Shown: one piece after another, positions 3,021-17,353 of the stretch
How the letters are laid out: each line of letters starts with the position of its first letter
Position numbering within the stretch: the stretch's first letter is position 1
Virus record (IMG/VR): IMGVR_UViG_3300025316_000027
Location: 1 to 44,892 of that record
DNA from: a virus
Length of the DNA stretch: 44,892 nt
Strand: one strand, 5' to 3'
The notes under the pieces: generated by a model
What the model was told of the DNA's origin: nothing
Databases searched by the model: none
Seen by the model: the letters and a program-made list of their open reading frames with translations, nothing else
Program-made: the position numbers and the translations under genes

Positions 3021-3238
3021 AACCGAAACCCAAAAAGAAGGCTTCCAAGATCATGAAATGCCGCCGCTGCAACGGCAACGCCATGCCCCACATGGCCTAC
3101 TGCCCCAAATGCATCGGCATCATCAAACGGGAAATGGCCGAGAGTGGGTACCTCACCGAAGTCCCCAAGGAACCAGTCCTGGAAGATGAAACCAAAATCG
3201 AAGAAATCGACGATTCCCACAAGGGTCGCAGATTATAA
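3017..3238 (+). CDS. Small zinc-ribbon protein, 73 aa
   Basis: A lysine-rich N-terminus is followed by CRRC (residues 15-18) and CPKC (residues 29-32), a single treble-clef or zinc-ribbon finger, then an acidic tail. A clear GGAGG sequence precedes the ATG, which overlaps the upstream stop as ATGA. Its own stop codon is the last base triplet before a tRNA-like 5' fragment. Exact function unknown. Confidence 0.65.
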   Translation: MKPKPKKKASKIMKCRRCNGNAMPHMAYCPKCIGIIKREMAESGYLTEVPKEPVLEDETKIEEIDDSHKGRRL

Positions 3239-3263
3239 GCGCCGGTAGCTCAATTGGCAGATA
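3239..3263 (+). other. Orphan tRNA 5' half (acceptor strand plus D arm)
   Basis: The sequence reads GCGCCGG, TA, GCTC, a D loop with AATTGGCAG, then stops resembling a tRNA. This is the typical first third of a tRNA, but no matching 3' half follows. The intact tRNA-Trp begins 8 bases later with its own acceptor and D arm. It looks like the leftover 5' end of a tRNA that was replaced or invaded. Confidence 0.55.
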
Positions 3264-3270
3264 ATGATAT

Positions 3271-3343
3271 ACGGTAGAAGCTGTAGCGGCACAGCACCGG
3301 TCTCCAAAACCGGCATTTGAGAGTTCGAGCCTCTCCTACCGTG
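3271..3343 (+). tRNA. tRNA-Trp (anticodon CCA)
   Basis: Cloverleaf: acceptor ACGGTAG pairs with CTACCGT (7 of 7), D stem GCTG/CAGC, anticodon stem CCGGT/ACCGG around loop CTCCAAA, and T stem GAGAG/CTCTC around TTCGAGC. CCA is not encoded at the 3' end. An orphan 5' half of another tRNA lies immediately upstream. Confidence 0.85.
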
Positions 3344-3376
3344 TTAGTCCTGCTCGGCGCGTTAGTATTTGAAAGC

Positions 3377-3622
3377 ATGAAGGCGAGACGCATGGGCATG
3401 TACATTCCAACGATGCTGGTCGTTTACCTCCTCGAAATAGTGCTCGGAGTAGTAATCACCACCAACCTGGCCAGACGCCATGGGAAACAACAAGGTCAAT
3501 ACGACATGGTCTCTCCCATCCTCGGCTGCGGGATAATCGTCATTGGTGCACTGCTAACAGCTGTAGTGGTACTAGTAACCATATTGCTCTCGGTGCTAAA
3601 TCACGTAGGAAGCTGGACATGA
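3377..3622 (+). CDS. Small membrane protein with two predicted transmembrane segments, 81 aa
   Basis: Two hydrophobic stretches (about residues 10-33 and 46-72) are separated by a basic loop, giving a hairpin inner-membrane topology. The family is unknown; a holin-like or other membrane accessory role is possible but unsupported. I chose ATG 3377. The frame is open further upstream, but a start there (GTG 3341) would sit in the tRNA-Trp 3' end. The stop overlaps the next ATG (ATGA). Confidence 0.55.
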   Translation: MKARRMGMYIPTMLVVYLLEIVLGVVITTNLARRHGKQQGQYDMVSPILGCGIIVIGALLTAVVVLVTILLSVLNHVGSWT

Positions 3623-3786
3623 TCTGTGATTATTGCGGCAAAAACAGAATTGATGAACACGGCCTTAGTCAGCCATGCATGAAAGTGGTCTCTGCCGGCC
3701 ATTTGAAACCCAAGAATTGGTGCGGATGCGAGCGGGGACGCGAAACACTACGGCAGAAATTGGCTCGTTGGTTCAAGGGCGGTTAG
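3619..3786 (+). CDS. Very small zinc-ribbon protein, 55 aa
   Basis: The protein begins MICDYCGKN and later carries an isolated Cys and a WCGC pair, so CxxC...C...CxC could bind one zinc ion. The C-terminus is basic and helical. It starts at an ATGA overlap with the membrane protein gene, good evidence of coupled translation. A 13-bp inverted repeat begins six bases after its stop. Confidence 0.6.
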   Translation: MICDYCGKNRIDEHGLSQPCMKVVSAGHLKPKNWCGCERGRETLRQKLARWFKGG

Positions 3787-3791
3787 CAGTC

Positions 3792-3837
3792 GAACCATCT
3801 CCAACCAAACATAATCTAATGGCTTTGGAGATGGTTC
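3792..3837 (+). promoter_or_regulatory. 13-bp hairpin that would sequester the ribosome-binding site of the downstream endonuclease
   Basis: GAACCATCTCCAA (3792-3804) is perfectly complementary to TTGGAGATGGTTC (3825-3837), with a 20-nt loop. The GGAG at 3827-3830, 8 nt before the ATG at 3839, is inside the 3' arm, so read-through mRNA would hide it. T4 homing endonucleases such as I-TevI are silenced by this arrangement. Confidence 0.7.
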
Positions 3838-3838
3838 T

Positions 3839-4813
3839 ATGAGCGAGATGGATGATAAAATAATTGAGTTGTATGACGGCGGCCTGACTTATAAAGAAGT
3901 GTCATTAAAGACCGGCGCTAGTAATGCCAGAATATCTAAATTGGTAAAAGGCCATCGATCACAATCAGATGCTGGGAGATTGACGGTCTCCAAGGGCATA
4001 TGCAAAGTCGCAAATATGACATCGGAGCAATGCAGCGCGAACGCAATTAAATCGGCGATATCAAGCAGGAAATTTTGGACAAAACCAGAGCGAATGTTCA
4101 GAATATTACTGAATGAATGCGGCGTCGGCGTCAAGTTTCCGCCCGGCATGCATGAGATAATCAAACAAAGCGATGATGTCAATGCGGATATATTTTACCA
4201 ATACCCAATCCAAAGGTATTTATGCGACTTCGTTGACCTCACGCATAAAACCATATTTAGGATAAATGGTGACTACTGGCACGCCAACCCACTGCTTTAT
4301 CCAAATCAAGATGACCTAACGAAACCACAAAAACACAATAGGATTCAAGATCGAAATGCTAAAATTTACTTCGAGAAGCATGGGTGGATAATAATTGACA
4401 TATGGGAGAGTGAAATCGCATGGGACCAAGACAAAGTGAAACACATAATCCGGGCGGCTAGGGAAGCGGCTAACCCGACTGGCCTACATCCAGTAGATCC
4501 CCGGTTCGAATCCGGGGCCGCCCAATGGCAAGATAGGCTGAAAAAATTGTGGTTCAGGCAACCAAAAACAAAGACAAGAACCAATTTTGGGCACGGCATG
4601 TGTAAATGCGGAAAGCAATTCGAGTTTCAGAACCAGAGGGAAGCAGCAAGGAAAAAGTACTGCAGCGTAGTATGCTCTGCATTCTATAAGCGGAAAACGA
4701 AATGGCCAAGCAATTTGGCCGAGCTGGTTGCGCAGAGCTCAATGAGAGCAATTGGTATCTTATTGGGGGTGACAGACAAGGCCGTCAAGAAACACCTGAA
4801 GACTAAGGCCTAG
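3839..4813 (+). CDS. Vsr-like homing endonuclease with helix-turn-helix ends, 324 aa, containing a tRNA gene
   Basis: The N-terminus is a helix-turn-helix (about residues 7-38). Residues about 115-205 form a Vsr/very-short-patch-like nuclease: CDFVD, a GDYWHANP motif, then an RIQDRNAKIYFEKHGW helix and a WESE ending, as in the Vsr/EDxHD fold used by some phage homing enzymes. The C-terminus has a CKCG...C...C zinc knuckle and a second helix-turn-helix that closely resembles the C-terminus of the HNH enzyme at 14239-14976. Between the nuclease and the C-terminal module the frame passes, sense and in frame, through a complete tRNA gene (4452-4524). The ribosome-binding site is in a strong hairpin. 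Fold assignment is by motif only. Confidence 0.75.
   Translation: MSEMDDKIIELYDGGLTYKEVSLKTGASNARISKLVKGHRSQSDAGRLTVSKGICKVANMTSEQCSANAIKSAISSRKFWTKPERMFRILLNECGVGVKFPPGMHEIIKQSDDVNADIFYQYPIQRYLCDFVDLTHKTIFRINGDYWHANPLLYPNQDDLTKPQKHNRIQDRNAKIYFEKHGWIIIDIWESEIAWDQDKVKHIIRAAREAANPTGLHPVDPRFESGAAQWQDRLKKLWFRQPKTKTRTNFGHGMCKCGKQFEFQNQREAARKKYCSVVCSAFYKRKTKWPSNLAELVAQSSMRAIGILLGVTDKAVKKHLKTKA
4452..4524 (+). tRNA. tRNA-Val-like (anticodon TAC), embedded in the endonuclease frame
   Basis: Acceptor GGGCGGC/GCCGCCC, a 3-bp D stem GGG/CCC with GG in the loop, anticodon stem ACTGG/CCAGT around CCTACAT, T stem CCCGG/CCGGG around TTCGAAT, discriminator A. Position 33 is C instead of the near-universal T. 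The entire gene lies within codons of the 3839-4813 frame on the same strand. Confidence 0.75.
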
Positions 4814-4819
4814 ATCATT

Positions 4820-5263
4820 ATGGAACGAAGACAGATGGCATGGATTAGAAGCGGCAACCCCGTCCAGATGTTCACCGAGATGGTCAGCATCGTACGCGAA
4901 GGAATCATAGATGGTGAGGTAACTAATGCCTCCATCGTCAAGGTCCTAACCCCCATCGACCCCAACGACCCACGCCAACGCCACAATCAGAAAGCCGTCC
5001 TCCTCACCGACGAGACCAGCGATCGCCCCGGAAACCAGATCTGGTTATACCTGGAGGTGCAGTTCAAAGATGGAGGCACTTTTGGATGCCTCACTAAGGA
5101 TGGAGAGCGCTACTCAATGAACGCCGAGACCTCCATGATCGGTGGTGTCGGTGGTGAGGGCGAAGGCTGGACTTTACATAGTCCTACTGATCCCATGCAG
5201 TTCAGCCACCGGGTTGTTCAGCAGATTAAAGAATTCATTGGGAAGTTTTTGGAGAAGCAGTGA
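4820..5263 (+). CDS. Hypothetical protein, 147 aa
   Basis: Unrecognised soluble protein. The middle looks like beta-strands (residues about 50-100) and the end is an amphipathic helix. There are no cysteine motifs and no membrane segments. It starts 6 bases after the endonuclease stop, which suggests the endonuclease was inserted directly in front of it. The final codons overlap a GTG start of the next frame (GTGA). Confidence 0.55.
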   Translation: MERRQMAWIRSGNPVQMFTEMVSIVREGIIDGEVTNASIVKVLTPIDPNDPRQRHNQKAVLLTDETSDRPGNQIWLYLEVQFKDGGTFGCLTKDGERYSMNAETSMIGGVGGEGEGWTLHSPTDPMQFSHRVVQQIKEFIGKFLEKQ

Positions 5264-5661
5264 AGCTGGACGATCTGAAATGCGAAGTGTGCGGAAAGAA
5301 GGGAGTAGCCACTTGGTCAGCCACAGAGGGAGCCCGCTGTCAGGAACACAGCGGGTACGTGGAGAAACACAAAAATACCCCGGCAGGTGAGGCCACGAGT
5401 GCCAACTCGTGCACCGCCGGGGACCACCTGGGCGAGGACCATTTAGCAGGTCGCCGGGTTTGGGACCCGGAGATTCGTGTGGGTGCGAACCCCACCGCCC
5501 AGATTTACCGGCACGATTGTGGTAGCAGTTCAAAGCGGTGCATAGTACTTGGAATCCCAATGAAGAAGGGACTATTTCACCATATAACCCAGGGTGTAGC
5601 TCAGAGGCAGAGCGCTCGGTCCGGAACCGAGAGGCCGGGATCTCAAAATTCCCCACCCTGA
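5260..5661 (+). CDS. Small zinc-binding protein whose frame runs on through two tRNA genes
   Basis: The first 40 residues (CEVCGKKG...CQEH) look like a genuine zinc ribbon and the GTG start is coupled to the upstream gene. The frame then has no stop through a hairpin, a complete tRNA-Pro and a second tRNA, finally ending on a TGA formed by the last bases of that tRNA. The C-terminal two thirds is therefore tRNA sequence read as protein. Either the original stop was lost when tRNAs arrived or the product is a meaningless extension. Only the N-terminal part is convincing. Confidence 0.4.
   Translation: MKLDDLKCEVCGKKGVATWSATEGARCQEHSGYVEKHKNTPAGEATSANSCTAGDHLGEDHLAGRRVWDPEIRVGANPTAQIYRHDCGSSSKRCIVLGIPMKKGLFHHITQGVAQRQSARSGTERPGSQNSPP
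5378..5422 (+). other. Strong composite hairpin just upstream of tRNA-Pro
   Basis: CCCCGGC (5378-5384) pairs with GCCGGGG (5416-5422). Inside, GGTG can pair with CACC, and CACGAG/CTCGTG forms an apical 6-bp hairpin with a 6-nt loop. No T-tract follows, so it is not a classical terminator. It may be a leader or processing element for the tRNA-Pro transcript, or a small structured RNA. Confidence 0.45.
5428..5503 (+). tRNA. tRNA-Pro (anticodon TGG)
   Basis: Acceptor CTGGGCG/CGCCCAG (7 of 7), D stem GACC/GGTC, anticodon stem CCGGG/CCCGG around TTTGGGA, T stem GTGGG/CCCAC around TGCGAAC. The D loop lacks an obvious GG. It lies inside the open frame of the preceding zinc-ribbon gene. Confidence 0.8.
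5590..5661 (+). tRNA. Degenerate tRNA, anticodon loop TCCGGAA (CGG by numbering; possibly a decayed Arg CCG)
   Basis: Acceptor CAGGGTG/CACCCTG and D arm GCTC/GAGC are perfect, and the anticodon stem is CTCGG/CCGAG. The loop has C at position 33, and the T arm is damaged: the T53-T61 pair is mismatched and the loop reads CTCAAAA instead of TTCRANN. The loop would be a normal Arg(CCG) loop if one T were restored. It may be non-functional. Confidence 0.5.
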
Positions 5662-5683
5662 ATATACTTAATCTGACCGGTAT

Positions 5684-5983
5684 TCACTTCACTTTTGCGA
5701 CTTCCGAGGTGCCATCCTCCATGGCTTTGTCGTGCTCTTTGTCTGCCTCCCCCAAGAGCGCCTCGAATTCCCCCACATGTACTTTCTCTTCCTTGGCCAC
5801 GTCCAAGAAGACCTTTTTGATCTTCTCGTTCTTGGTGCTGGCCGCCATTTGTTCATAGAGGCTAGCGGCATCCAGCTCGGCGATAATAGCTTGGCGTAGG
5901 AGAATGGCATCGCTAGACTTGGCTTCGTCGGCGACGCCTAGTAACGCCATGGTTTCGGATATTAATTTAGGATCTGGGTACAT
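5684..5983 (-). CDS. Ferritin-like (rubrerythrin-type) small protein, 99 aa
   Basis: Residues 24-78 form a two-helix half-ferritin: AELDAASLYEQMA (E36, E44) followed by a second helix with KEEKVHVGEFEALL (E65, E66, H69, E72). The E...ExxH pattern is the di-iron ligand set of ferritin-like and encapsulated-ferritin-like proteins. At 99 residues it would have to dimerise to complete the four-helix bundle. Small ferritin-like proteins occur in structural regions of some large phages, and this one opens the - strand structural cluster. Iron binding is inferred, not shown. A GAGG lies upstream of the ATG. Confidence 0.65.
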   Translation of the reverse strand: MYPDPKLISETMALLGVADEAKSSDAILLRQAIIAELDAASLYEQMAASTKNEKIKKVFLDVAKEEKVHVGEFEALLGEADKEHDKAMEDGTSEVAKVK

Positions 5984-6024
5984 ATGGCACCTCTATTAAA
6001 GGTTTGCCTGGTGCCATGCGGGAC

Positions 6025-6453
6025 TTAGGCCAGCGGTACTGGATCGTTAAACAAGGCCAGGTAGGCCGGATTGTCAACCTGGGCTGCGGAGCCATCCGGC
6101 TTAGCTACTGCCACCTTGGCAGGAACAACCGATAGCAACAGCTGTTTAGTGCCAGTAAGATACGCCTTTAAGCCATCATAGGCTAGCTTCTTAGCATCTT
6201 CAATGCCGCCCTGGAGTACACCAGAGCCGTTATCAACACCATCGCGAAGTTGAGCCAGAGTGGGGGCATTGCCAGTAGTCAGAAGTGTTGGGCCAAAGAC
6301 TACTTCACGCAGTCTAGTATAAATAGCCATCAGCTGCTGTGTTGCCCCAACTGAAAGAGTTTCTAGATTGATGTCGGCAAACTGTACAACCTGGAGCACA
6401 GTCTTGCCTGTCATGTCTACGCCGCAAAGAGTGGTTACTGGTCTGGTCGCCAT
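6025..6453 (-). CDS. Hypothetical phage protein, 142 aa
   Basis: Unrecognised; helical, Ala/Leu/Val-rich, no membrane segment. It has a good TAGGAG ribosome-binding site and an AT-rich TCAAAAATAC element about 20 bases before it. It sits between the ferritin-like gene and the fibre-associated genes on the same strand, so a virion or tail-fibre accessory role is plausible but not demonstrated. Confidence 0.55.
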   Translation of the reverse strand: MATRPVTTLCGVDMTGKTVLQVVQFADINLETLSVGATQQLMAIYTRLREVVFGPTLLTTGNAPTLAQLRDGVDNGSGVLQGGIEDAKKLAYDGLKAYLTGTKQLLLSVVPAKVAVAKPDGSAAQVDNPAYLALFNDPVPLA

Positions 6454-6481
6454 TGAATAGCTCCTAAAAGAGTATTTTTGA

Positions 6482-6973
6482 TTACTTTGTCTTAATAGGT
6501 TTAGTCGGTTTGGCTTTTAACTGTAAAGCAGGTAGAAGGTCAGGAATGGGGTTGGTGACCGCATCACCATTAGCCCATTTAATTACATCAACTGCTCTAC
6601 CATTATAACATTGGTCACTAGCCCTGACTACACCGCTCAAATACATAATCCACTGCTTATAGACTACATCATTAGGTGCAGCTTTGGCTTGGTTAAAAGC
6701 AATCAATGCTGCTGCTGGATAATCCCCCTTTAGTAGGTTAATTAGGTATGCTCTAGAATCATTTGGATTAGGAGTCGCAGCTAAAGCGTTACTTAATACC
6801 GCAGAACGATTGTGGCCCCACCGATTACACACTTTAGCGTCATCCGCCACCGACGAGAAGGTGAGCATCCATTGAGCATTCTTATCTGGTAAACTGGGAG
6901 TGATGGGTGTACCAGACTCGCACCACACCGAGGCAGCTAGGGCTGGGGTCGTTGCTTTTTCTGGTATAGCCAT
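6482..6973 (-). CDS. Hypothetical protein linked to the fibre gene, 163 aa
   Basis: Begins MAIPEKATTPALAAS; the same PxKATTP linker occurs twice in the N-terminal third of the neighbouring 1088-residue fibre protein, suggesting a shared module. The C-terminus is Lys/Pro-rich. An AAATATAAAG element lies right before the ATG. It lies 25 bases downstream of the fibre gene and may encode a fibre partner or a small tip protein; no family is recognised. Confidence 0.55.
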   Translation of the reverse strand: MAIPEKATTPALAASVWCESGTPITPSLPDKNAQWMLTFSSVADDAKVCNRWGHNRSAVLSNALAATPNPNDSRAYLINLLKGDYPAAALIAFNQAKAAPNDVVYKQWIMYLSGVVRASDQCYNGRAVDVIKWANGDAVTNPIPDLLPALQLKAKPTKPIKTK

Positions 6974-6998
6974 GCTTTATATTTCCCGTCACCATTCC

Positions 6999-9900
6999 TT
7001 ACAAGTGTGGCGTCCCATCGTTGGTATTACCTGAAGTATCAACCGCAGTACTGCAATCCGGCCAATGTAAGAAGATATCAGGAATAATGTAGCCTCCGCC
7101 AGCAACCGCCGCAATCTCTACGTCAAGCAGGGCTCGACTCCAGATTGCGTAGTTATTGGCCTCGCCAACTAGGCCAATACTCCCCGCCCCCCGCGCTGCG
7201 AAGGTTGAAAGTACATTACCAGCGATCGAGCCAGATGCAGTAGTGCCTGACTGCAGTACTCCATCCACAAAGAAATCTAGAGAGACAGTCCCCAGCCCAT
7301 CATCAGAAAAACGAGCCGTATAACAATGCTCCACTCCAGGATCTATTGAAGCAAGAGTGTCTAAGTCAGCAAAACCAATACACCCAATATGCCATCTACC
7401 GTCATATTGCAAAAACACCTGGGGCTGTCCAGTTGGCGTCCCAGAATAGTCGGCTTCGGCCATCATCTGGACTCCCCCATCATAGACAGACGAAATTCGG
7501 GCACTGACAGTCAGTCCATATCCTAAAGTTAGTGCCGGGTGTGTGATGTAGCTCGTTCCTCTGAAAGTTGGAGCGGGGTCCGCCGTCCCCACCAACGGTT
7601 CCCCCACAGGCCCTTCACCGTATTCGCTGGTGGCCGTGGCGGTGAAACTGAAAGCATAGCCGGGTCCGACCGCGATGAGCGCGGCGACATCCCCACTGAT
7701 CGTGCCCTCATACCATGTGTAGGAGGTGATCGTGCCCGCTCCGGGGTCGGCCACGGCGGATAGCTGATACAGCCAGACCGTTCCGTTCCAGGTCGCCGAG
7801 ACCAGGGTGAGCGTGGCCGGACCGGGGAGATTGTTCGGAGCGTTATCCGGTACGTCGATGGTCCAGCCGCGCGCAACCAGCGTAGTGTAGGAAGTCTCGT
7901 CGGAGTAGCCGTTGTTGCCGGTGAATGCGATCGCGCCCCCGTACACTCCGCCCGCATCCGCGGCCGCCAATAGCGAGTCTACCTGGGCCACAGAGAGCCC
8001 GCAGTTCGTCACATCCACCCGCGACAGGTTGCCGGTGATGTGGAATACCCCGCCTACCGCGGTGCTGTACAGGTAGAACACGTCGCCCGTTACGTACACG
8101 TCGCCCGCCACGGCACCATACGCCAGCACGGGGAAGATCAGCCCGCCGGTCGCGGTGTCCAGCACTCCGCCGGAGATGTACGCGTCGCCGGCGACGGTGA
8201 AACCGCTGGCCAGCTGGCAGCCCACCACGTCTATCGCACTGGTTCCAAACGCCGAGGCCGTGGACGAGGCCGTCACATGGATCGAGCCCGTGATCGTCGC
8301 CGGTGGAATCGTCGTGAACCATTGAGCCGCTGTGACCGCCCCGGCGACCATGGCGTTGACGGTGCAGTTCCCTGCGCTCAGGGCCGCGAAGCTAGCTGCA
8401 CTCCCGGATGGAACCGAGTCGTCGAGCAGCGTGTAGTTGATCACGGCGTTGCCGCATGCTGCGGAGGCCGAGAATACCGGAGCGTTCGTAGCAACTCCGC
8501 CAGCCACCGTGTAATCCCATTGCACGGTGTCGCCAGGCCCAAAGATCGTGCTCGCCGGCACGCCTCCGACCGTGTAGTTGCCCGGATTCAGACCATCGTT
8601 ATCGGCCAGGGCGTTTGTCCAGAGATACGGACCGGCCGGGGTATCTGGAAGAGTGCCATCAATTGTACCTGCTGAGGTAGTTGGGCCATAGGCATTAGAG
8701 TGTGTTATATAAATTGAATATGGAGCATTGGGGGCATATCCAGAAACATAAGAATTAAATGTATTGAAAACTGTGCTGTCTAAAAGTGTTTCGCGATAGA
8801 TTTCGGTGTCGTCAAAATAGTCTGACCAGGAGATATTTATCTCCCAACAGGTAAAGTCTTGGTTCCAATTAATAGAATCTAAGTTTGGAATCTGAGCGGG
8901 GGCACCAGCATTAGGTAGGGGGCTGCCCATTGCGATCTGGGAGGCGTCCGACGGATCGGACGGTTGGCCACGCCCGTAAATGGCGCTGACGCCGTAGCAA
9001 ACGATGCCGCTCAAATCAGCACTAGGAGCGATGGGAGATCCACTGTCTATGAAGTAGCTACCAACACTTGCCAGAGGACATCCCCACGACTCCCCTCCCA
9101 TGCTGTCGGCGTAGTCGATTGTCCCCACCATCATCACATAGGTCCACGCTGAACCATTCCAGTTAGCGCTAGACCAATCGGTAAGGGGATCAATCACCGG
9201 GGCACTCGGCTTACTGGGAGCTAGAGGATCGCTAAGCCATGACAGCGTCAGAGGATCGCTTATTGGCCCATTGCCAGCAGCATTGACACCGCGAGCCTTC
9301 GCCACAAACGCAGTCGCAGCAGTATGCTCACCGTTCAGCAGGAGGGTGATGCAGTCAGCGGGACCACCGGGACTCACATCCATGTACCCTTGCGGAATGC
9401 CTTCCACTTCCGAAGCTGGATAACATGCGCGTCCGTGACCGGCAGCCCCGTAATCGCTCTCTTGATTTGCTGCCCACACATCACTACCCGCCGCGTCCGA
9501 AACCCACCAACTGGAAACATTCCACCACAACACTCCGTGTGTACCTGTCAGCACCTTCTTGCCACCATAGATGCCAGTGATGGTGTAGTATCCCTCCAAG
9601 TTTGGATACAGCGTATGTAATCCTGTGCCATCACTCACCGCCCCGCCTGCAAACTTCTTCGCGGCGGTGTACGTGCCACTATCGTTGATGTCGTAGACCA
9701 CACTGGTGGACCCTACACTGGTCGCATCCAGAGTGTAGACGTACTTATCGCCATCTAAGAGGGCTACGACAGTGGGCGTAGTGGCCTTGGCGGGAACTTG
9801 CAGCCATGTCCCCGCTTCACTGACCGGTCCATCTCCAGCAGTATTGTGCCCCTTAGCCAAGCAACTGCCGGTGGTGCCGTACGCCTTGGTTGCTGTTGCC

Positions 9901-10265
9901 ACACCCCACGTTACGCCAGCATCATAGCTGTACAGCATGGAAGTAGAGCCCGTCGCCGTGGCGTGGGCCGTTACTGTGGTGGCGTCATAGATAAAGGTGG
10001 GCGTGGTGGCCTTGGCGGGAACGACAGGAGGCAGGGGTGATACTGCCAACTTAGTAATTATGGCAGAAGTGTTGAATTTGGCCAACACAAAATCACTGGC
10101 CGCTTCGTCCTGGAGATATCTTGTTAGGGTGGGGTATCCGACTGCGTCCACGCGCGTTTCCCGCGTGGCTATGAGCCTTTCCCCAAAAGTTAAAGAAGTG
10201 AGGTCTTTGACCACCCCGCCCACTAGGGTTACTTCTTTAAAGCCAACTATGTGGATATTTGACAT
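6999..10265 (-). CDS. Large tail-fibre or adhesin protein with repeated beta-domains and a LamG-like C-terminus, 1088 aa
   Basis: The N-terminal roughly 90 residues are non-repetitive and may attach to the virion. They are followed by fibronectin/Ig-like modules joined by KATTP linkers. Around residues 730-790 is an LRR-like stretch (VTNCGLSVAQVDSLL...GNNG). The final about 180 residues (YITHPALTLGYGL...DFFVDG...NYAIWSRALLDVEI...DTSGNTNDGTPHL) match the concanavalin/LamG fold common at phage fibre tips and used to bind glycans. The DNA for residues about 540-900 is visibly richer in G+C than the flanks, as if the domains were swapped in. A host-receptor-binding role is inferred. Confidence 0.75.
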   Translation of the reverse strand: MSNIHIVGFKEVTLVGGVVKDLTSLTFGERLIATRETRVDAVGYPTLTRYLQDEAASDFVLAKFNTSAIITKLAVSPLPPVVPAKATTPTFIYDATTVTAHATATGSTSMLYSYDAGVTWGVATATKAYGTTGSCLAKGHNTAGDGPVSEAGTWLQVPAKATTPTVVALLDGDKYVYTLDATSVGSTSVVYDINDSGTYTAAKKFAGGAVSDGTGLHTLYPNLEGYYTITGIYGGKKVLTGTHGVLWWNVSSWWVSDAAGSDVWAANQESDYGAAGHGRACYPASEVEGIPQGYMDVSPGGPADCITLLLNGEHTAATAFVAKARGVNAAGNGPISDPLTLSWLSDPLAPSKPSAPVIDPLTDWSSANWNGSAWTYVMMVGTIDYADSMGGESWGCPLASVGSYFIDSGSPIAPSADLSGIVCYGVSAIYGRGQPSDPSDASQIAMGSPLPNAGAPAQIPNLDSINWNQDFTCWEINISWSDYFDDTEIYRETLLDSTVFNTFNSYVSGYAPNAPYSIYITHSNAYGPTTSAGTIDGTLPDTPAGPYLWTNALADNDGLNPGNYTVGGVPASTIFGPGDTVQWDYTVAGGVATNAPVFSASAACGNAVINYTLLDDSVPSGSAASFAALSAGNCTVNAMVAGAVTAAQWFTTIPPATITGSIHVTASSTASAFGTSAIDVVGCQLASGFTVAGDAYISGGVLDTATGGLIFPVLAYGAVAGDVYVTGDVFYLYSTAVGGVFHITGNLSRVDVTNCGLSVAQVDSLLAAADAGGVYGGAIAFTGNNGYSDETSYTTLVARGWTIDVPDNAPNNLPGPATLTLVSATWNGTVWLYQLSAVADPGAGTITSYTWYEGTISGDVAALIAVGPGYAFSFTATATSEYGEGPVGEPLVGTADPAPTFRGTSYITHPALTLGYGLTVSARISSVYDGGVQMMAEADYSGTPTGQPQVFLQYDGRWHIGCIGFADLDTLASIDPGVEHCYTARFSDDGLGTVSLDFFVDGVLQSGTTASGSIAGNVLSTFAARGAGSIGLVGEANNYAIWSRALLDVEIAAVAGGGYIIPDIFLHWPDCSTAVDTSGNTNDGTPHL

Positions 10266-10341
10266 ATCAACCCATGAATTTCAATATAAGTATATTTGCG
10301 GCGTGTGACCCACTCTGGATACAGCAATGCCCACGGTGAAA

Positions 10342-11253
10342 CTAGCGGCCAAACCGGCTGAAAGTTCTAACACGGTGACAGTTGGCACACACTAAGTCGC
10401 ATTTTATTATTTCGGCAGTCAACTCGCCAATGGTATACCTACGGCACGCCACATTAGATATATTAAATGACTTGGTCAGACTGTCACGGTGGTCAAATTC
10501 CATCGCTGTGGGGTGAAATTGGAGGCCACAGTCCTGGCATGGCTGCTTCTTGCGGTTCTGAACAAATGCTCGCTTATACAATCCAGACTCAGATGGAACA
10601 TCACCAATTAGCCGGTACTTATGCCCTAGCCTATGACAAACAGCACACAGTAGGCGGCATTTCTTGGACTCAAGCAGCGTGGCTTCCCAAGAGTTGCCAG
10701 CCAACATGTGACTCATACTTTTAAATTTATCAGACAAGTGATGAAAATCATACGCGGCGTTGTGGAACTGCCCACCGCATTCGCTGCACTTTCCACCCAT
10801 TATCTTAACTAATTTATCTTTCCTCAATCTGGCTCTCAGCCTTTTATTGCTAACTGAGACATTGTGGCATTTTGAACAATAATATAGTCCCGGTTGTGGC
10901 TCACCACCGCACCCCACGCACTGGCCCTCTATTTTACGACGACCGCGAACCCCCTCACGCTGCTGATTGGCGTGACAATTTGGACATATTCTGCAATAGG
11001 TAAATCCTCTTTCACACAAGTTATTAATATACTTACGGACTTTGCGCTTAGTGCCGCATTGCGGACAGTCACCAGCATCAGATTTGGAGTCAAGTCTGCG
11101 GAAGTAACTTGGATTGAAAACTGGGATATTGTGGCGTTTACAGAACTGACCTAAACCAACATCTGAAACACCTATTTCCTCCGCTATGGCGTTGAGTGGC
11201 CTCCGAGTAACTTCGGAGGCCACCCAAGCTATACTCTTTATGATTTTAGGCAT
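10342..11253 (-). CDS. Homing endonuclease with two tandem HNH domains, 303 aa
   Basis: The N-terminal helix-turn-helix is followed by zinc knuckles (CPQCG, CRICPNCH, CVGCG, CSKCH). A first HNH domain follows (CSECGG...YDFHHL...CRLLCAVCHR) and then a second (CQDCGL...MEFDHR...CDLVCANCHR). Single HNH domains are the rule in phage homing enzymes; two in one chain is unusual and suggests fusion or an internal dimer. A TCAAATATAG motif lies 3 bases before the ATG. It is inserted between the fibre gene and the next HNH gene. Confidence 0.8.
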   Translation of the reverse strand: MPKIIKSIAWVASEVTRRPLNAIAEEIGVSDVGLGQFCKRHNIPVFNPSYFRRLDSKSDAGDCPQCGTKRKVRKYINNLCERGFTYCRICPNCHANQQREGVRGRRKIEGQCVGCGGEPQPGLYYCSKCHNVSVSNKRLRARLRKDKLVKIMGGKCSECGGQFHNAAYDFHHLSDKFKSMSHMLAGNSWEATLLESKKCRLLCAVCHRLGHKYRLIGDVPSESGLYKRAFVQNRKKQPCQDCGLQFHPTAMEFDHRDSLTKSFNISNVACRRYTIGELTAEIIKCDLVCANCHRVRTFSRFGR

Positions 11254-11289
11254 GCTCTATATTTGATTCCAGTATGCCACATCAACAAA

Positions 11290-11913
11290 TTACTCTTGGA
11301 GAGTCGTAAGCCAGTAAGCCACATCCACAAAATGTGCCCAAGAGGCGCGCTGCACTCTGGGGATGGGGAACTGGTAAGGCGGAGCCTTCGGCTCCCGCAC
11401 CAACCGCATCCCGGCTTCCCGAGGCGTCCGAGCGGACTTGCGCGTATTGCAAGCTACACATGCACAAACCAGGTTGTGCCACTCCAGCTTGCCGCCCCGG
11501 CTCTTGGGGATAACGTGGTCCAAAGTCAAATCCGAAGACTTAAACTTCTTGCCGCAGTACTGGCACCGGAAGCCATCCCGCGCAAAGAGGTTGTGCCGGT
11601 TGAGCTTAACCTTCCGACGCCGATACTCCCCATAGTGGGTCAGCCGCAGAATGGAGGGGACTGCGATGTGCCGGTTGACGGTCCGGAGCCAGATGTGCTG
11701 CTCCCGCTCGAACTCAGCCTTGAACTCACTCAGCTCCTTCCAGGACTCGAAATCGTAGGTGAAGTACTTGCGATTAGGCTCTTCGCCTTCGATATCTAGG
11801 GCCTCGGCCCGACCCTGCATGAGCAGGTTGACAGCCTTCCGCGCCGTGACGAAATCTTGCGCCACATAGTTGCGGTTCAGGATCAGAACAGGCTCTGATA
11901 ATACGGCAGTCAT
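11290..11913 (-). CDS. HNH endonuclease family protein, 207 aa
   Basis: The N-terminal VLILNRNY...VTARKAVNLLMQGRAEAL block is typical of a widespread bacterial and phage HNH family. The nuclease core is FRCQYCGKKF...LTLDHVIPKSRGG...NLVCACVACNTRK, with the CxxC...H...CxxC ribs and DH catalytic pair intact. I chose the ATG at 11913 because AAGGAGG stands just before it; the frame is open further into the tRNA. It lies 15 bases after tRNA-Leu(GAG) and could be a free-standing nuclease rather than a homing enzyme. Confidence 0.8.
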   Translation of the reverse strand: MTAVLSEPVLILNRNYVAQDFVTARKAVNLLMQGRAEALDIEGEEPNRKYFTYDFESWKELSEFKAEFEREQHIWLRTVNRHIAVPSILRLTHYGEYRRRKVKLNRHNLFARDGFRCQYCGKKFKSSDLTLDHVIPKSRGGKLEWHNLVCACVACNTRKSARTPREAGMRLVREPKAPPYQFPIPRVQRASWAHFVDVAYWLTTLQE

Positions 11914-11927
11914 GATAACCTCCTTAA

Positions 11928-12011
11928 TGCTCGGGACAGGAGTCGAACCTGCAAGACCTTGCGGCCACAAGCACCTCAAGCTTGCGCGTCTGCCAATTTC
12001 GCCACCCGAGC
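11928..12011 (-). tRNA. tRNA-Leu (anticodon GAG)
   Basis: Acceptor GCTCGGG/CCCGAGC, anticodon stem CAAGC/GCTTG around TTGAGGT, a long variable arm, T loop TTCGACT. The HNH gene starts 15 bases downstream and an AT-rich promoter-like motif lies 20 bases upstream. Confidence 0.9.
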
Positions 12012-12030
12012 GATTAGTCAACAACTCCTA

Positions 12031-12040
12031 CTTATATTTA
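12031..12040 (-). promoter_or_regulatory. Candidate phage promoter, TAAATATAAG
   Basis: On the - strand this reads TAAATATAAG, followed by TAGGAG. The identical 10-mer occurs upstream of the hydrolase (23528-23537) and collagen-like (43192-43201) genes. It resembles AT-rich late promoters of T4-like phages (TATAAATA). Here it would drive tRNA-Leu and the HNH gene. Confidence 0.5.
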
Positions 12041-12125
12041 TTCATCGGTGGGCTTACCTCGCTGCTGGCCGCCCGTGCTGTCCAGCGGCAGCAGCGGCAA
12101 ATACCACATAATTCAAAAGTCCGGT

Positions 12126-12365
12126 ATGAAGATCGCCGTATTGTACGAGAATATGACGCCGCCAGAACTTCAAAACCACTTACAGCAGCAAGTCGAAGAA
12201 GCTCTCGGAGAGGTCAACCGTTGGTACTGCTCCCAGGCTATGGGATACAACGTCTCAGACCCAGAAATCCTCCTTAAATACTATATTAAGAATGGTGGAG
12301 CGGAGGGGTACCGCAAGCGCCACGAAGAATACCACCAAATGTCCGCCCCCTCACCCACTGTCTAA
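12126..12365 (+). CDS. Hypothetical protein, 79 aa
   Basis: An isolated + strand gene amid - strand genes. The protein (MKIAVLYENMTPPEL...) is predicted helical and ends in a basic, Tyr-rich segment. No family is recognised and the ribosome-binding site is weak. Its stop codon directly abuts the 3' end of a tRNA fragment on the other strand. Confidence 0.5.
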   Translation: MKIAVLYENMTPPELQNHLQQQVEEALGEVNRWYCSQAMGYNVSDPEILLKYYIKNGGAEGYRKRHEEYHQMSAPSPTV

Positions 12366-12406
12366 TGCACCCGGCGAGACTCGAACTCGCACAACCCAGC
12401 TTCGAA
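12366..12406 (-). other. tRNA 3' half of a split tRNA-Arg (probable anticodon TCG)
   Basis: On the - strand it reads TTCGAA, anticodon 3' stem GCTGG, variable GTTGT, T arm GCGAG/CTCGC around TTCGAGT, acceptor CGGGTGC, then A. No 5' half precedes it; instead the complete tRNA-Arg(CCG) and an HNH gene do. Its acceptor strand is exactly complementary to GCACCCG of the fragment at 13118-13145. Confidence 0.65.
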
Positions 12407-12480
12407 TGTCCCTGGTGGGATTCGAACCCACAAAATACCACCTTCGGAAAGTGGTGCCCATCCAATTGAGCATCAGGGAC
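12407..12480 (-). tRNA. tRNA-Arg (anticodon CCG)
   Basis: Acceptor GTCCCTG/CAGGGAC, D stem GCTC/GGGC, anticodon stem CCACT/GGTGG around TTCCGAA, T stem GTGGG/CCCAC around TTCGAAT. The first eight bases contain the TGA stop of the upstream HNH gene. It is located between the two halves of another, broken tRNA. Confidence 0.85.
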
Positions 12481-13054
12481 GCATAGGGAGAGTGTAATCT
12501 CGCGGAAGTTTTAATTTATCAAGAACCACAAGCCAATCGCCGCAATTACATATTGTATCAATAGCCTTATTTAATTGGCAATTATGATCTATAACTATCT
12601 TATCGTCAATTAGGCCACGGTGATATTCACCATGACAATTGTGGCAATAAGCGACACATTTCCTAAGTTCCGCAATAATCTTCTTGAATTGGTGCCCAAA
12701 CGCTTTATTTCCCAACTCAAACGACTTATCTTTAAGATGATGGAACACAATGTTGGTTATGGTTTTATCATAGCCACACTTTTGGCATCTATACCCAATT
12801 AAACAAAGGATTGCTCGCCGATTCCTACTTCGGATTAAATTAGCTGGGTCAGCGCCATGCGCCTCTACAAATTTATCGCGCCAATTGCGGGTATTATTAC
12901 GTTTCCTAGCCCTAAAATTCTCGACAGAGCAAGTGGGGCGGGGCGACTTGAATGGCTGACAATCAAGGCACCGAACTCGACTACCCAAATTATGGAGCTT
13001 GCCATCTATTGTCATCCAATTCGGAAACGTAGCGCCACATTTGCATGTTTTCAT
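12473..13054 (-). CDS. HNH homing endonuclease, 193 aa
   Basis: The N-terminal zinc knuckle (CKCG...CLDC) is followed by an HNH core: GYRCQKCGYDK, IVFHHLKDK, then CVAYCHNCHGEYHRG with all zinc and catalytic histidines present. The C-terminus is short and its TGA stop is formed inside the 5' acceptor strand of tRNA-Arg(CCG). A TCAAATATAG motif lies 3 bases before the ATG. The gene sits within a split tRNA, as expected if the enzyme cleaves a tRNA anticodon region. Confidence 0.85.
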   Translation of the reverse strand: MKTCKCGATFPNWMTIDGKLHNLGSRVRCLDCQPFKSPRPTCSVENFRARKRNNTRNWRDKFVEAHGADPANLIRSRNRRAILCLIGYRCQKCGYDKTITNIVFHHLKDKSFELGNKAFGHQFKKIIAELRKCVAYCHNCHGEYHRGLIDDKIVIDHNCQLNKAIDTICNCGDWLVVLDKLKLPRDYTLPMRP

Positions 13055-13073
13055 ATACTATATTTGACACTAA

Positions 13074-13101
13074 GTACTCTATCCAATTGGGCTACACTAA
13101 G
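13074..13101 (-). other. Orphan tRNA 5' half (fragment B)
   Basis: On the - strand: CTTAGTG, TA, GCCC, AATTGGATA, GAGT, AC, a tRNA acceptor and D arm. No partner with CACTAAG was found in the window. It lies between the 5' half of the split tRNA-Arg and the HNH gene, and its first eight bases recur just after it (CTTAGTGT). Confidence 0.5.
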
Positions 13102-13117
13102 ATAGAACCAGAAAAGT

Positions 13118-13145
13118 GTGCCCTATCCAATTGGACTACGGGTGC
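13118..13145 (-). other. tRNA 5' half of the split tRNA-Arg (fragment A)
   Basis: On the - strand: acceptor GCACCCG, TA, D stem GTCC/GGGC around AATTGGATA, AC, then the tRNA pattern stops in the anticodon stem. The acceptor pairs 7 of 7 with CGGGTGC of the 3' half at 12366-12406, about 710 bases downstream. Its TAG at tRNA positions 8-10 is the stop codon of the preceding RMF-like gene. Confidence 0.65.
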
Positions 13146-13423
13146 TTAATTTCCCAACGCCTGGGCGTATCCGCTTTCCCCTCATCCCACCCTAAAAACC
13201 ATTGCTCACGCCGTTCCCCCTGGTGTGGGTTGGCCTCACGCTTCAACCCATTACCAAATGCGTAGTACCCTTGCACATAATAATCAAGACCATACCCAGC
13301 ACGGGCGCGATTACATTTAGATGAAGATTTGTAAACGCGCTTAGTCGTTCCGCATCGTTTACATATCCTTCCCTCCTCGTAAAGGTGGTTGCTAAATCCA
13401 TTGATACAGGGCTTTGATTTCAT
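13136..13423 (-). CDS. Zinc-knuckle protein with a ribosome-modulation-factor-like domain, 95 aa
   Basis: The N-terminal CxN...CKRCG finger (residues 5-27) is followed by YYVQGYYAFGNGLKREANPH...EQWFLGWDEG (about residues 49-83), the Gx-AF-xG-xNP...W-xGW signature of ribosome modulation factor (RMF), which in E. coli dimerises 70S ribosomes in stationary phase. RMF-like domains are found in various phages. The ATG at 13423 overlaps the end of the tRNA-Arg transcript by spacing only 2 bases, and the stop TAG is supplied by a tRNA fragment. Ribosome binding is inferred from the motif. Confidence 0.65.
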   Translation of the reverse strand: MKSKPCINGFSNHLYEEGRICKRCGTTKRVYKSSSKCNRARAGYGLDYYVQGYYAFGNGLKREANPHQGERREQWFLGWDEGKADTPRRWEIKHP

Positions 13424-13425
13424 AA

Positions 13426-13500
13426 TGACCCCGGTGGGGCTCGAACCCACGACCCTCTGCTTAGAAGGCAGATGCTCTAATCCAACTGAGCTACGAGGTC
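13426..13500 (-). tRNA. tRNA-Arg (anticodon TCT)
   Basis: Acceptor GACCTCG/CGGGGTC (one G-T pair), D stem GCTC/GAGC, anticodon stem TCTGC/GCAGA around CTTCTAA, T stem GTGGG/CCCAC around TTCGAGC. It lies between tRNA-Leu(CAA) and the RMF-like gene. Confidence 0.9.
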
Positions 13501-13504
13501 GAAT

Positions 13505-13524
13505 GCCACGATCACGCTCGTGGC
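13505..13524 (-). other. Hairpin between two tRNA genes
   Basis: GCCACGA and TCGTGGC form a 7-bp stem around a 6-nt loop in the 41-base spacer between tRNA-Leu(CAA) and tRNA-Arg(TCT). It has no T-tract, so a role in precursor processing or partial termination is possible. Confidence 0.4.
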
Positions 13525-13541
13525 CAGCGCATAACCCGGAA

Positions 13542-13623
13542 TGCGGATAGCAGGAGTCGAACCTGCACGGCTTGCGCCACTAGTTCTTGAGACTAGCGTG
13601 TCTGCCAATTCCACCATACCCGC
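13542..13623 (-). tRNA. tRNA-Leu (anticodon CAA)
   Basis: Acceptor GCGGGTA/TATCCGC, anticodon stem CTAGT/ACTAG around CTCAAGA, long variable arm, T stem GCAGG/CCTGC around TTCGACT. It begins 8 bases after the stop of the upstream gene. Confidence 0.9.
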
Positions 13624-13630
13624 GATATTT

Positions 13631-13876
13631 TTACTTAAACCCATTGGGGTAAGCCAAAACCTCTGCCCGCCCCCAAATCGCAGCTCCGAACTTTGCCAGC
13701 AACTCATCCCCAGTGACAGTATACACCTCTAAAATAGGCGAGTGTAACTTCTCAGAGACGATCACCACAAAAGTGGCCTTGTCTATACTCCCCCGGATCA
13801 TCCGATGATATTTTTGGCCCAGTTCGAAGTGGAGTTCATTCGAGGGAAAGATTCTGCTCTCTTGTCCAAGCATCAA
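13631..13876 (-). CDS. Hypothetical protein, 81 aa
   Basis: Unrecognised; a mixed alpha/beta protein with a central hydrophobic beta segment (FVVIV) and no cysteine cluster. Its N-terminus overlaps the end of the upstream gene by about 40 bases in another frame, typical of compact phage operons; a second ATG one codon later is also possible. It is followed immediately by tRNA-Leu(CAA). Confidence 0.55.
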   Translation of the reverse strand: MMLGQESRIFPSNELHFELGQKYHRMIRGSIDKATFVVIVSEKLHSPILEVYTVTGDELLAKFGAAIWGRAEVLAYPNGFK

Positions 13877-14258
13877 CAGCTTCCTTTAGTTCTTTTCGGG
13901 TGCTCTTGAATACTTTTACATACGACCGATTAGTCACCAGCATTCCGTGCTCCCATAGGCCCTCATAGACCCCATTGCCATCGTAGAAAAACTCTCTAGT
14001 TCCTGTTCTACTAAATGCCCAGGTGGCAGGTTTAACCCGGACATGGAACACTGGCTTACTGCCTGGCGATTCCACAGCATCAGAAACATACCACTTATTC
14101 GGCCATTTGTCTGATGTATCTGGCAATGCGCCGATCCCCGCAAAGCACTCACGATCAAGCTCTGTGGTTATTGCATCAGTCATTAAATCAAAAATGGTCG
14201 GCGGACGCATAGGCCGCAGTCCCACAATCCCTAGAACCTCATACGTGTAACGTCCCAT
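13836..14258 (-). CDS. Hypothetical protein, 140 aa
   Basis: Unrecognised soluble protein rich in Trp, Tyr, Phe and charged residues. The start overlaps the last 20 bases of the HNH endonuclease gene, which means the endonuclease was placed flush against this gene. It is one of several small, unrelated-looking accessory proteins in this tRNA region. Confidence 0.55.
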   Translation of the reverse strand: MGRYTYEVLGIVGLRPMRPPTIFDLMTDAITTELDRECFAGIGALPDTSDKWPNKWYVSDAVESPGSKPVFHVRVKPATWAFSRTGTREFFYDGNGVYEGLWEHGMLVTNRSYVKVFKSTRKELKEAVDAWTREQNLSLE

Positions 14259-14976
14259 AATGGTTCTTTATCCTTTTTGCGACAGCTTTGTCTGAAACAC
14301 CCAATGATATTGCGACAGCCCGATACGATGAATTCTTTATTAGCTCTGGGAGATTATCTGGCCAAGTAATTTTCTCCCGTTTAATAAGGGCACACTCGCG
14401 GCATGTATTCCCACGCCTCATTAGCTTGCCACACCTGCACCTCTTGGCGTGCAATCGTTTGTTAACAAGCACTGGTGATATGCCCATCTTATCGGCGACT
14501 ACTTCTATTGTCTCGTTCGCAACCAAGCCAGCGAGGTCATCAGGCCACTTTATTTTATTGGCATACTGGCATTGACATTTCCATGAACAGAATTTATTGC
14601 CCTTGGTTGGCCTCCCGCACTCGTGGCAATATGTGAATTTATGGCTAGTTGGGATTGGTCTCTGAGGCCCAATGGCTGCCATCGCCACCTTGCGATTATC
14701 AACATTAACTTCTGGACATGCCCTAATACCAGCGTGAATCTCACCATGACAATTATGACAGACCATCACGCATTTATCCGCCTCCTCAATAATATCATTC
14801 CACGATGAGCACTTATTAATCAACCTAGCCATGGCTGCCTTTTTATCTCGCAAATGGTGCCATGCAAAGTTGCCGTGATATTTATCATATCCACATGACT
14901 GACATTTACCCCCACTGTACTTGACGAGCCACTGTTTTGCCTTAACTCGCCATCGTTGTGTGCTAACATAACTCAT
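14239..14976 (-). CDS. HNH homing endonuclease with two zinc/helix-turn-helix tails, 245 aa
   Basis: The HNH core is at residues about 20-85: GKCQSCGYDKYHG, FAWHHLRDK, CVMVCHNCHGEIHAG. Two DNA-binding units follow, each a zinc knuckle plus a helix-turn-helix (KIKWPDDLAGLV... and KITWPDNLPELI...). The second is nearly the same module as the C-terminus of the Vsr-like enzyme at 3839-4813, a clear case of module exchange between nuclease folds. I chose ATG 14976 with GAGGG upstream. tRNA-Thr lies 37 bases upstream. Confidence 0.8.
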   Translation of the reverse strand: MSYVSTQRWRVKAKQWLVKYSGGKCQSCGYDKYHGNFAWHHLRDKKAAMARLINKCSSWNDIIEEADKCVMVCHNCHGEIHAGIRACPEVNVDNRKVAMAAIGPQRPIPTSHKFTYCHECGRPTKGNKFCSWKCQCQYANKIKWPDDLAGLVANETIEVVADKMGISPVLVNKRLHAKRCRCGKLMRRGNTCRECALIKREKITWPDNLPELIKNSSYRAVAISLGVSDKAVAKRIKNHYGTLHV

Positions 14977-15012
14977 CGAACCCTCGATTAAAACATTATG
15001 TTTGCATAGAAT

Positions 15013-15084
15013 AGCCACCGGTAGGATTCGCACCTACAACCACCCGTGTACAAGACGGGAGCTCTGCTATTGAGCTACGGCGGC
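15013..15084 (-). tRNA. tRNA-Thr (anticodon TGT)
   Basis: Acceptor GCCGCCG/CGGTGGC, D stem GCTC/GAGC, anticodon stem CCCGT/ACGGG around CTTGTAC, T stem GTAGG/CCTAC around TGCGAAT. It is preceded by an almost identical extra copy of its 5' half and followed by an HNH endonuclease gene. Confidence 0.85.
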
Positions 15085-15114
15085 AGTCCGGCTCTGCCAT
15101 TGAGCTACGGCGGC
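15085..15114 (-). repeat. Duplicated 5' half of tRNA-Thr
   Basis: On the - strand the 24 bases from GCCGCCG through the D arm repeat those of the adjacent tRNA-Thr with one mismatch (AATGGCAG versus AATAGCAG), followed by CGGACT. There is no 3' half, so it is a partial tandem duplication at the 5' side of the tRNA. Confidence 0.7.
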
Positions 15115-16695: not shown

Positions 16696-16776
16696 TGCTC
16701 TCAGCAGGAGTCGAACCTGCAAGCCATTCGGCACGGTATCTGAAACCGCTGCGTATGCCAATTCCGCCATGAGAGC
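16696..16776 (-). tRNA. tRNA-Leu (anticodon CAG)
   Basis: Acceptor GCTCTCA/TGAGAGC, anticodon stem GCGGT/ACCGT around TTCAGAT, long variable arm, T stem GCAGG/CCTGC around TTCGACT. It is flanked by the membrane protein gene and a PD-(D/E)XK endonuclease gene. Confidence 0.9.
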
Positions 16777-16798
16777 GAATGTATTCCGATCAAATCTA

Positions 16799-17353
16799 AT
16801 GTGTATGCAAGACCAGCGAATTATCGAATTATTCAAAATGGGGCTTGGCGCTCGCAAAATAGCGAGAACATTGGGCTACAAGCACCACGCCACTGTGTCC
16901 AGGCAGTTAATGAGACTAGGCCTGTCACGCAACTCTTCGGTTGTCCCAAATGGCGAGAAGTCATTAATACTATTCGGAGGCAATGGTAAATTGGATCGTG
17001 CTGCCGAATCGTATTTAAAATTTCGCTGCGACCTCGCTGGATTCGAGTGGGCGCAAGTTCACGCTAGCCTACCATATGACCTCTTAGTGGATTTTGGATC
17101 TGGCTGGAGGAGAGTACAGATAAAATCGTCCGGCTTGGCCAACCCCAGCGGCAATTTCATATTCAATGTGTTCCATCGTCAGTGGGGTAATGGCACCAGA
17201 GAAAAAGTGCAATATAGCTTGGACGACGTCGATTATTTCTTTCTGTTCGATCAGAATAAGAACTCGTGGCTAATACCATCATCGCTACTGGTGCAGCAGA
17301 TTACCATAACACCAGAATTGCGGTTTCCCGGTTTCAAATTAGATAGAGTCTAA
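16799..17353 (+). CDS. PD-(D/E)XK homing endonuclease, 184 aa
   Basis: N-terminal helix-turn-helix (about residues 5-40: RIIELFKMGLGARKIARTLGY). The nuclease core starts with GKLDRAAESYLKFR and has the catalytic set in YDLLVDFGSG...RRVQIKSSG, D followed by QxK, as in the PDDEXK_5 group that includes I-Ssp6803I, an enzyme known to target a tRNA gene. The C-terminus ends with WLIPSSLL. I chose ATG 16799; ATG 16805 is also possible and ATG 16769 overlaps the tRNA. A variant of the endonuclease promoter motif (TCAAATCTAA) lies directly upstream. Confidence 0.75.
   Translation: MCMQDQRIIELFKMGLGARKIARTLGYKHHATVSRQLMRLGLSRNSSVVPNGEKSLILFGGNGKLDRAAESYLKFRCDLAGFEWAQVHASLPYDLLVDFGSGWRRVQIKSSGLANPSGNFIFNVFHRQWGNGTREKVQYSLDDVDYFFLFDQNKNSWLIPSSLLVQQITITPELRFPGFKLDRV

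Follow-up and report, generated by a model that had tools for sequence, protein, structure and literature searches.

The four orphan transfer RNA (tRNA) 5' halves in the viral record IMGVR_UViG_3300025316_000027 (IMG/VR) are probably scars left by the homing of free-standing endonuclease genes, with phage tRNA genes as their targets. The window, meaning the whole stretch of DNA analysed, is a linear viral contig of 44,892 bases, in which ARAGORN and cmscan identified 21 tRNA genes, all within 3.2-25.3 kb. About nine nuclease-like open reading frames (ORFs) of several families are interspersed with these tRNAs (Table 1): one DUF559-like, three HNH, two PD-(D/E)XK-like, one GIY-YIG, one LAGLIDADG, and one ORF with a GIYWGEGDK motif, which we take as LAGLIDADG-like as judged by eye. 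We found three patterns at such genes: isotype-conserving swaps of the adjoining tRNA, nuclease genes nested with a tRNA-Arg inside another tRNA-Arg, and overlaps between nuclease ORFs and tRNA genes. The nucleases, we infer, cut tRNA genes while the tRNA linked to them escapes the cut, and the half genes arose as illegitimate joins.

At the Arg site, the minus strand carries, in order, a 5' half, a second degenerate 5' half, an HNH gene, a complete tRNA-Arg(CCG) and a 3' half. The acceptor strands of the 13145 5' half and the 12406-12366 3' half pair at 7/7 positions (GCACCCG/CGGGTGC), and the two are one interrupted tRNA-Arg; the preliminary description of this DNA, which counted only 5' halves apart from a single 3' half, had separated the ends of one gene. 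The 3' half opens with TTCGAAGCTGG and closes with CGGGTGCA. Since it begins at an NCG anticodon, the broken gene was also a tRNA-Arg. Both 5' halves match tRNA-Arg(ACG) or (CCT) at 12-14 of the 15 bases of positions 8-22, and the 13101 half is identical to tRNA-Arg(ACG) at 14 of them. The HNH gene of this site encodes the CxxC/HH/CxxCH motifs common to phage HNH proteins (motif alignment) and gave tblastn matches to annotated phage HNH endonucleases; its match to Pfam AI2M-like_HNH (E=0.0014) was below the cut-off. In the simplest history, a nuclease-tRNA-Arg unit would have entered a single tRNA-Arg, and the process would have been repeated at least once. Invasion at this site probably happened at least twice.

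For comparison we used a set of 173 loci with 845 tRNAs (viral contigs and phage loci, numbered with an L). Locus L106 has the order 5' half (GGTCTTG), tRNA-Arg(TCT), HNH gene, 3' half (TTCTAAGC loop...CGAGACC). Its halves pair at 7/7 acceptor positions, their isotype matches, and the interruption falls at nearly the same tRNA position as in the window. L106 is an independent instance of the nested Arg design.

Next to nuclease genes, tRNAs were swapped between related phages. We compared five pairs, picked because the nuclease gene differs, which addresses where a swap falls and not how often swaps happen. In SLAM_phiST45 an HNH gene with a tRNA-Ala stands where 1-29 has a different tRNA-Ala, and in atrejo an HNH gene with a tRNA-Asp stands where SP_Thor has a different tRNA-Asp. 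Klebsiella phages and SPLA5a behave in the same way. In PWKp9S/K7rec11 the tRNA-Asn is swapped and K7rec11 carries another nuclease gene, of the T5orf172 type, while PWKp9S/SEL21 and SPLA5a/EspYZU08 each show a swapped tRNA-Tyr. In 5/5 pairs exactly one tRNA flanking the homing endonuclease gene (HEG) was replaced, with an identity of 0.53-0.67 and an unchanged anticodon. Nearly all other tRNAs of the same pairs were 0.93-1.00 identical, and the measured flanks 0.94-0.99. Swapped tRNAs made up 5/10 of the HEG-flanking tRNAs vs 1/19 of the others (Fisher test, p=0.0105; five comparisons, two of which have PWKp9S in common). Presence and absence of the nuclease gene at one locus with homologous flanks was seen in T5-like and Seunavirus pairs.

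A similar pattern was found with another HNH family in a series of loci (L144, L146, L149, L160, L147) that have one order in common: HNH gene, tRNA-Thr(TGT), shared downstream sequence. Among the first four, the tRNA-Thr genes are 48-79% identical, the HNH ends 76-87% and the downstream flanks 69-93%; L146 and L147 have one tRNA in common. The tRNA is usually less identical than both flanks, which is the opposite of normal tRNA conservation. Between L149 and L147, for example, the HNH end is 97% identical, the tRNA 61% and the downstream sequence 80%. L147 and L148 keep a 23-nucleotide 5' half between the HNH gene and the new tRNA-Thr, and this half is identical to the tRNA-Thr of L160 at 19/23 positions. 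The window's 14239 HNH gene is 33% identical over 178 amino acids, most of its length, to the HNH gene abutting tRNA-Thr in L149.

Nuclease genes and tRNA genes also share ends. Across the 173 loci, 24/41 HNH-type HEG ORFs stop inside the downstream tRNA, compared with 16/62 other ORFs (p=0.001). The commonest such stop is the tRNA's own T8-A9-G10, and nine HEG ORFs stop exactly there. Similar HNH genes adjoin tRNA-Thr, Lys, Met, Val, Asp and Phe, indicating that the gene moved between tRNAs. In the window, matches to HNH, LAGLIDADG, GIY-YIG and PD-(D/E)XK domains were found, several of them below the Pfam cut-off. The 3839-4813 ORF is open through a tRNA-Val(TAC) on the same strand, so that this tRNA would double as coding sequence for a stretch of the protein; the ORF has a C-terminal domain in common with the 14239 HNH. 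A general linkage of DUF559 nucleases to tRNAs was rejected, since few of the loci with DUF559 relatives (L001-L080) contain a tRNA.

Orphan halves were scanned for with a position weight matrix plus D-stem, for which the window's 21 intact tRNAs served as the training set. The four 5' halves reported in the preliminary description were confirmed as genuine: they score 16-25 bits, where simulated sequence gives about 0.33 matches of at least 16 bits per window, and none falls within a complete tRNA found by ARAGORN or cmscan. The 13101 and 3239 halves are weak on score alone, and their position beside tRNA genes adds weight. The break point, described earlier as constant, proved only loosely so. 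The window halves break at tRNA positions 23/24 (approximately, inside the D-stem; 3239 half), 26 (13101), 27 (13145) and 31 (15114), a range of 23-31 that widens to 23-38 in other loci. Even so, 11 of 12 truncations judged by eye break at positions 23-38 (p ~5e-4), with positions assigned by hand and breaks before position 23 undetectable.

Across the 173 loci, the scan found 52 orphan 5' halves of at least 20 bits, compared with one in shuffled sequence, before filtering; many of the 52 are whole, split or permuted tRNAs. After filtering, a 5' half occurred in 5/63 spaces between tRNAs that hold an HEG vs 5/336 that do not (399 spaces in loci chosen for an HNH gene, p=0.011). The association with endonuclease genes that had been proposed for the window was thus recovered, although it is weak by itself: two of the five halves in HEG spaces are permuted tRNAs (L129, L137), and those of L147/L148 are near copies. 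We rejected the idea that all halves missed by ARAGORN are scars. Several are tRNAs split by group I introns (L097, L108, L143), and others are complete tRNAs with small inserts, parts of transfer-messenger RNA (L135, L137), cuts at locus ends or permuted tRNAs.

We propose the following mechanism. A nuclease gene would sit against a tRNA gene, often with ends in common, as seen here. To judge from the scars, its product would cut the tRNA gene resident in a co-infecting phage, in the region from the D-arm to the anticodon arm. Repair would copy in the nuclease gene together with the tRNA beside it, which has the same isotype but a divergent sequence, in line with the isotype-conserving swaps, and the incoming tRNA would presumably stay uncut and keep the decoding function. 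With homology at both joins, the resident tRNA would be lost cleanly. With an illegitimate join, a remnant would stay, as an orphan 5' half or sometimes as both halves, as may have happened at the window's Arg site and in L106. We suggest more tentatively that unrelated homing nuclease families may have converged on this arrangement, each travelling with a divergent isoacceptor that replaces the tRNA gene it destroys. Such a cut-and-rescue-like pair could replace tRNAs rapidly while leaving the decoding set unchanged, with half-tRNA fossils arising from illegitimate joins.

Several findings weigh against this explanation, beside the narrow base of the Fisher test. The swapped tRNA is the upstream one in SPLA5a/EspYZU08 and PWKp9S/SEL21. 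At the Arg site, about 5-7 nucleotides of the anticodon arm are missing between the remnants, so the inserts were not clean. No nuclease gene lies between tRNA-Trp and the 3239 half. In L136-L141 the same HNH family precedes tRNA-Lys, not tRNA-Thr, and therefore the HEG itself moves between isotypes. The association tests were conditioned on loci chosen for an HNH gene. Finally, relatives of the window were sought by DNA and by its own proteins and none useful was found, so that its own empty sites are deduced; L177-L179, which turned up in this search, contain no tRNA.

Ordinary turnover is an unlikely alternative, though not a negligible one. It would have mosaic, decaying tRNA clusters in which nucleases gather at conserved, dispensable landing sites and the halves are random debris. 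Swaps away from the studied nuclease genes (tRNA-Gln in SPLA5a/EspYZU08, tRNA-Lys in ST45/SenS3) fit it, as do the orphan halves in spaces without an HNH gene. However, all five comparisons include a swapped HEG-flanking tRNA, the anticodon is conserved in the swaps, an HNH gene with a tRNA-Arg occurs inside a tRNA-Arg twice independently, and the break points cluster.

The preliminary description favoured nuclease cuts in tRNA anticodon arms and a repair that leaves the 5' half of the cut tRNA in duplicate. The cutting is plausible; the model as a whole we consider improbable and its duplication step mostly wrong, because the neighbouring tRNA usually differs although it serves the same amino acid, and because the allele pairs show replacement. 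The Thr site speaks for it: the orphan half abuts the neighbouring tRNA-Thr and, as had been noted, is a near copy of its 5' half, with 23 of the first 24 bases identical and then 1/6. This is the only window half that looks like a duplicate, and it could also be a swap between similar tRNAs. Elsewhere the Arg halves are one interrupted gene, the halves of L147 and L106 differ from the adjacent tRNA, and the 3239 half does not resemble tRNA-Trp. At the Trp site a possible 3' acceptor remnant pairs at 7/7 positions with the 3239 half (chance about 3% by our estimate), so that tRNA-Trp may stand within what is left of another tRNA.

Remnants of endonuclease-carrying group I introns once inserted in tRNA anticodon loops are very unlikely to explain the halves: comparable loci do hold tRNAs split at anticodon-loop positions (L097, L108, L143), but the window has no match to the group I intron model (RF00028) up to E=1, a complete tRNA-Arg lies between the halves, the T5-like alleles have no introns, and those 5-7 exon bases are missing. 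A functional role for the halves, as pieces of split or circularly permuted tRNAs, is just as improbable. Permuted arrangements whose acceptor and anticodon stems match, seen in other viral contigs and in two cases shortly before an HNH gene (L129, L137), might argue for it; but none of the window's 5' halves has a 3' half upstream of it, a complete tRNA for the same amino acid is present, and one split functional tRNA-Arg was ruled out because the 13145 and 12406 anticodon strands are unpaired in the normal register, with a whole tRNA between them.

The homing explanation has precedents. T4 SegB, a free-standing GIY-YIG endonuclease of the tRNA cluster, is likewise encoded among phage tRNA genes and promotes inheritance of its tRNA region (PMC2988022; PMC13096335). 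Its cuts fall inside tRNA genes, and its co-localisation with tRNAs is reported across phages; targeting of tRNA genes by the nucleases studied here is therefore plausible (PMC13096335). On our reading of the published motif, the SegB motif matches the T-loop. SegB represents one GIY-YIG family, whereas the window has HNH genes beside the orphan halves and its GIY-YIG gene elsewhere. In the present loci, by contrast with SegB, HNH, LAGLIDADG, PD-(D/E)XK-like and T5orf172 genes adjoin individual tRNAs, the isoacceptor on one side has been swapped, and scars in the form of half-tRNAs are left. Intronless homing with marker exclusion in T-even phages shows that free-standing endonucleases bring about local replacement of recipient alleles by donor alleles, as proposed here, and the targets known for it are chiefly protein genes (PMC2988022). 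In our case a tRNA is exchanged for one that has the same anticodon but is unrelated in sequence, and that is sometimes placed within the old gene.

Group I introns with homing endonucleases, which occur in tRNA genes of bacteria and phages, also interrupt the anticodon arm beside a nuclease gene (PMC3984707); in contrast, the window gene is broken and not spliced, and the second tRNA would keep the function. For a tRNA-integrating element, a duplicated tRNA 3' end at an attachment (att) site was not seen, the window remnants being mainly 5' halves, in an integrase search that was not exhaustive. The permuted order, a 3' half directly upstream of its matching 5' half, does not occur in the window. 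Isoacceptor-swapping tRNA homing would be a variant of intronless homing. A literature search, with most subscription papers outside its reach, found no description of isoacceptor swaps with homing endonucleases.

Table 1. Orphan tRNA halves, nuclease genes and associated tRNAs in the window
Feature	Position	Strand	Details
Orphan 5' half, acceptor GCGCCGG	3239-3263	+	Break inside D-stem; 16.3 bits (3239-3263)
tRNA-Trp with unusual A8-A9	3270-3344	+	Between the 3239 half and the possible 3' acceptor remnant; ARAGORN
TCGGCGC, possible 3' acceptor remnant	3354-3360	+	Pairs 7/7 with GCGCCGG of the 3239 half; sequence, fold
DUF559-like nuclease ORF	3839-4813	+	Open in frame through all of tRNA-Val(TAC), 4452-4524
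HNH gene	11290-11910	-	Directly 3' of tRNA-Leu(GAG); HNH_5 4.5e-19
3' half of broken tRNA-Arg	12366-12406	-	Begins at the anticodon (NCG), at a position within 33-35
Complete tRNA-Arg(CCG)	12407-12480	-	Overlaps HNH gene end; ARAGORN; cmscan 49 bits
HNH-type endonuclease-like gene, 193 amino acids	12473-13054	-	TGA stop within first 8 nucleotides of tRNA-Arg(CCG)
Second, degenerate Arg-like 5' half	13074-13101	-	16.6 bits (13101-13076)
Orphan tRNA-Arg 5' half (GCACCCGTAGTCCAATTGGATAGGGCAC)	13118-13145	-	Ends near position 27; 22.4 bits (13145-13120); GCACCCG...GGGCAC
HNH gene, 3' of tRNA-Thr	14239-14976	-	Homology to HNH preceding tRNA-Thr elsewhere
Complete tRNA-Thr(TGT)	15013-15084	-	Abuts orphan half; ARAGORN, cmscan
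Orphan tRNA-Thr 5' half, 30 nucleotides	15085-15114	-	Ends at position 31; 24.8 bits (15114-15091)
PD-(D/E)XK-like nuclease	16769-17353	+	Start codon in 5' end of opposite-strand tRNA-Leu(CAG); PDDEXK_5 6.6e-7
GIY-YIG/NUMOD1 endonuclease	22120-22998	-	Ends just 5' of tRNA-Tyr; Pfam
LAGLIDADG endonuclease	23618-24367	-	Pfam LAGLIDADG_3 2.4e-7; TAA stop is positions 8-10 of tRNA-Val(CAC)
PD-(D/E)XK-like nuclease	24547-25137	-	Between tRNA-Ser and tRNA-His; PDDEXK_5 6.8e-5, below cut-off

Several tRNAs had unusual features. The tRNA-Trp of the window and two other tRNAs (L081 2827-2902, L086 2708-2783) have A8-A9 instead of the conserved T8, and for each of them one allele or more has nuclease genes or orphan halves next to the tRNA. 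The charging identity of the tRNA called Gln(TTG) at 18989-19077 on the minus strand of the window is doubtful, because it has a long variable arm as is normal for Leu, Ser and Tyr. A long G+C-rich inverted repeat, CCCCGGCAGGTG...CACCGCCGGGG, lies at 5352-5397, directly 5' of tRNA-Pro(TGG). In L098 (4748-4885) a tRNA-Asn, right after an orphan 5' half, is flanked by the arms of a perfect inverted repeat (about 20 bp), which lengthens the acceptor stem. Some phage tRNAs have about 18-82 extra nucleotides at or near the anticodon loop, shorter than group I introns can be (L100 5464-5620 on the minus strand, L137 5499-5611 and 814-906, L019 4396-4492).

Apparent circularly permuted tRNAs were seen in L019 (5240-5285, 5394-5448, 5545-5599), L129/L132 (4841-4897), L137 (4665-4719) and L120/L123 (about 3165-3221). 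The 3' half lies 4-7 nucleotides upstream of the 5' half, the acceptor stems pair at 6-7/7 positions, and the anticodon stems mostly pair (4-5/5; 3/5 in L120), with distal flanks that can fold into a closing helix. The three of L019 stand in tandem, with acceptors of 8-9 bp by eye. Our literature search found no paper on permuted tRNAs in phages. In L175 (713-812), a tRNA-like 3' piece followed by a 5' half stands directly before tRNA-Asn, an arrangement present in 30 Klebsiella phage records. It has a long anticodon-side helix and acceptors that do not match, and may represent either a scar or a permuted tRNA that has degenerated.

Half-tRNAs in viral contigs need case-by-case reading, as some are intron-split or permuted. 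Codon usage and the attack of host nucleases on tRNAs are the usual explanations for the large number and fast variation of phage tRNAs. If the homing explanation is true, orphan halves would be traces of past homing events, and selfish cutting, rather than decoding demand, would account for much of the diversity in sequence among phage tRNAs.

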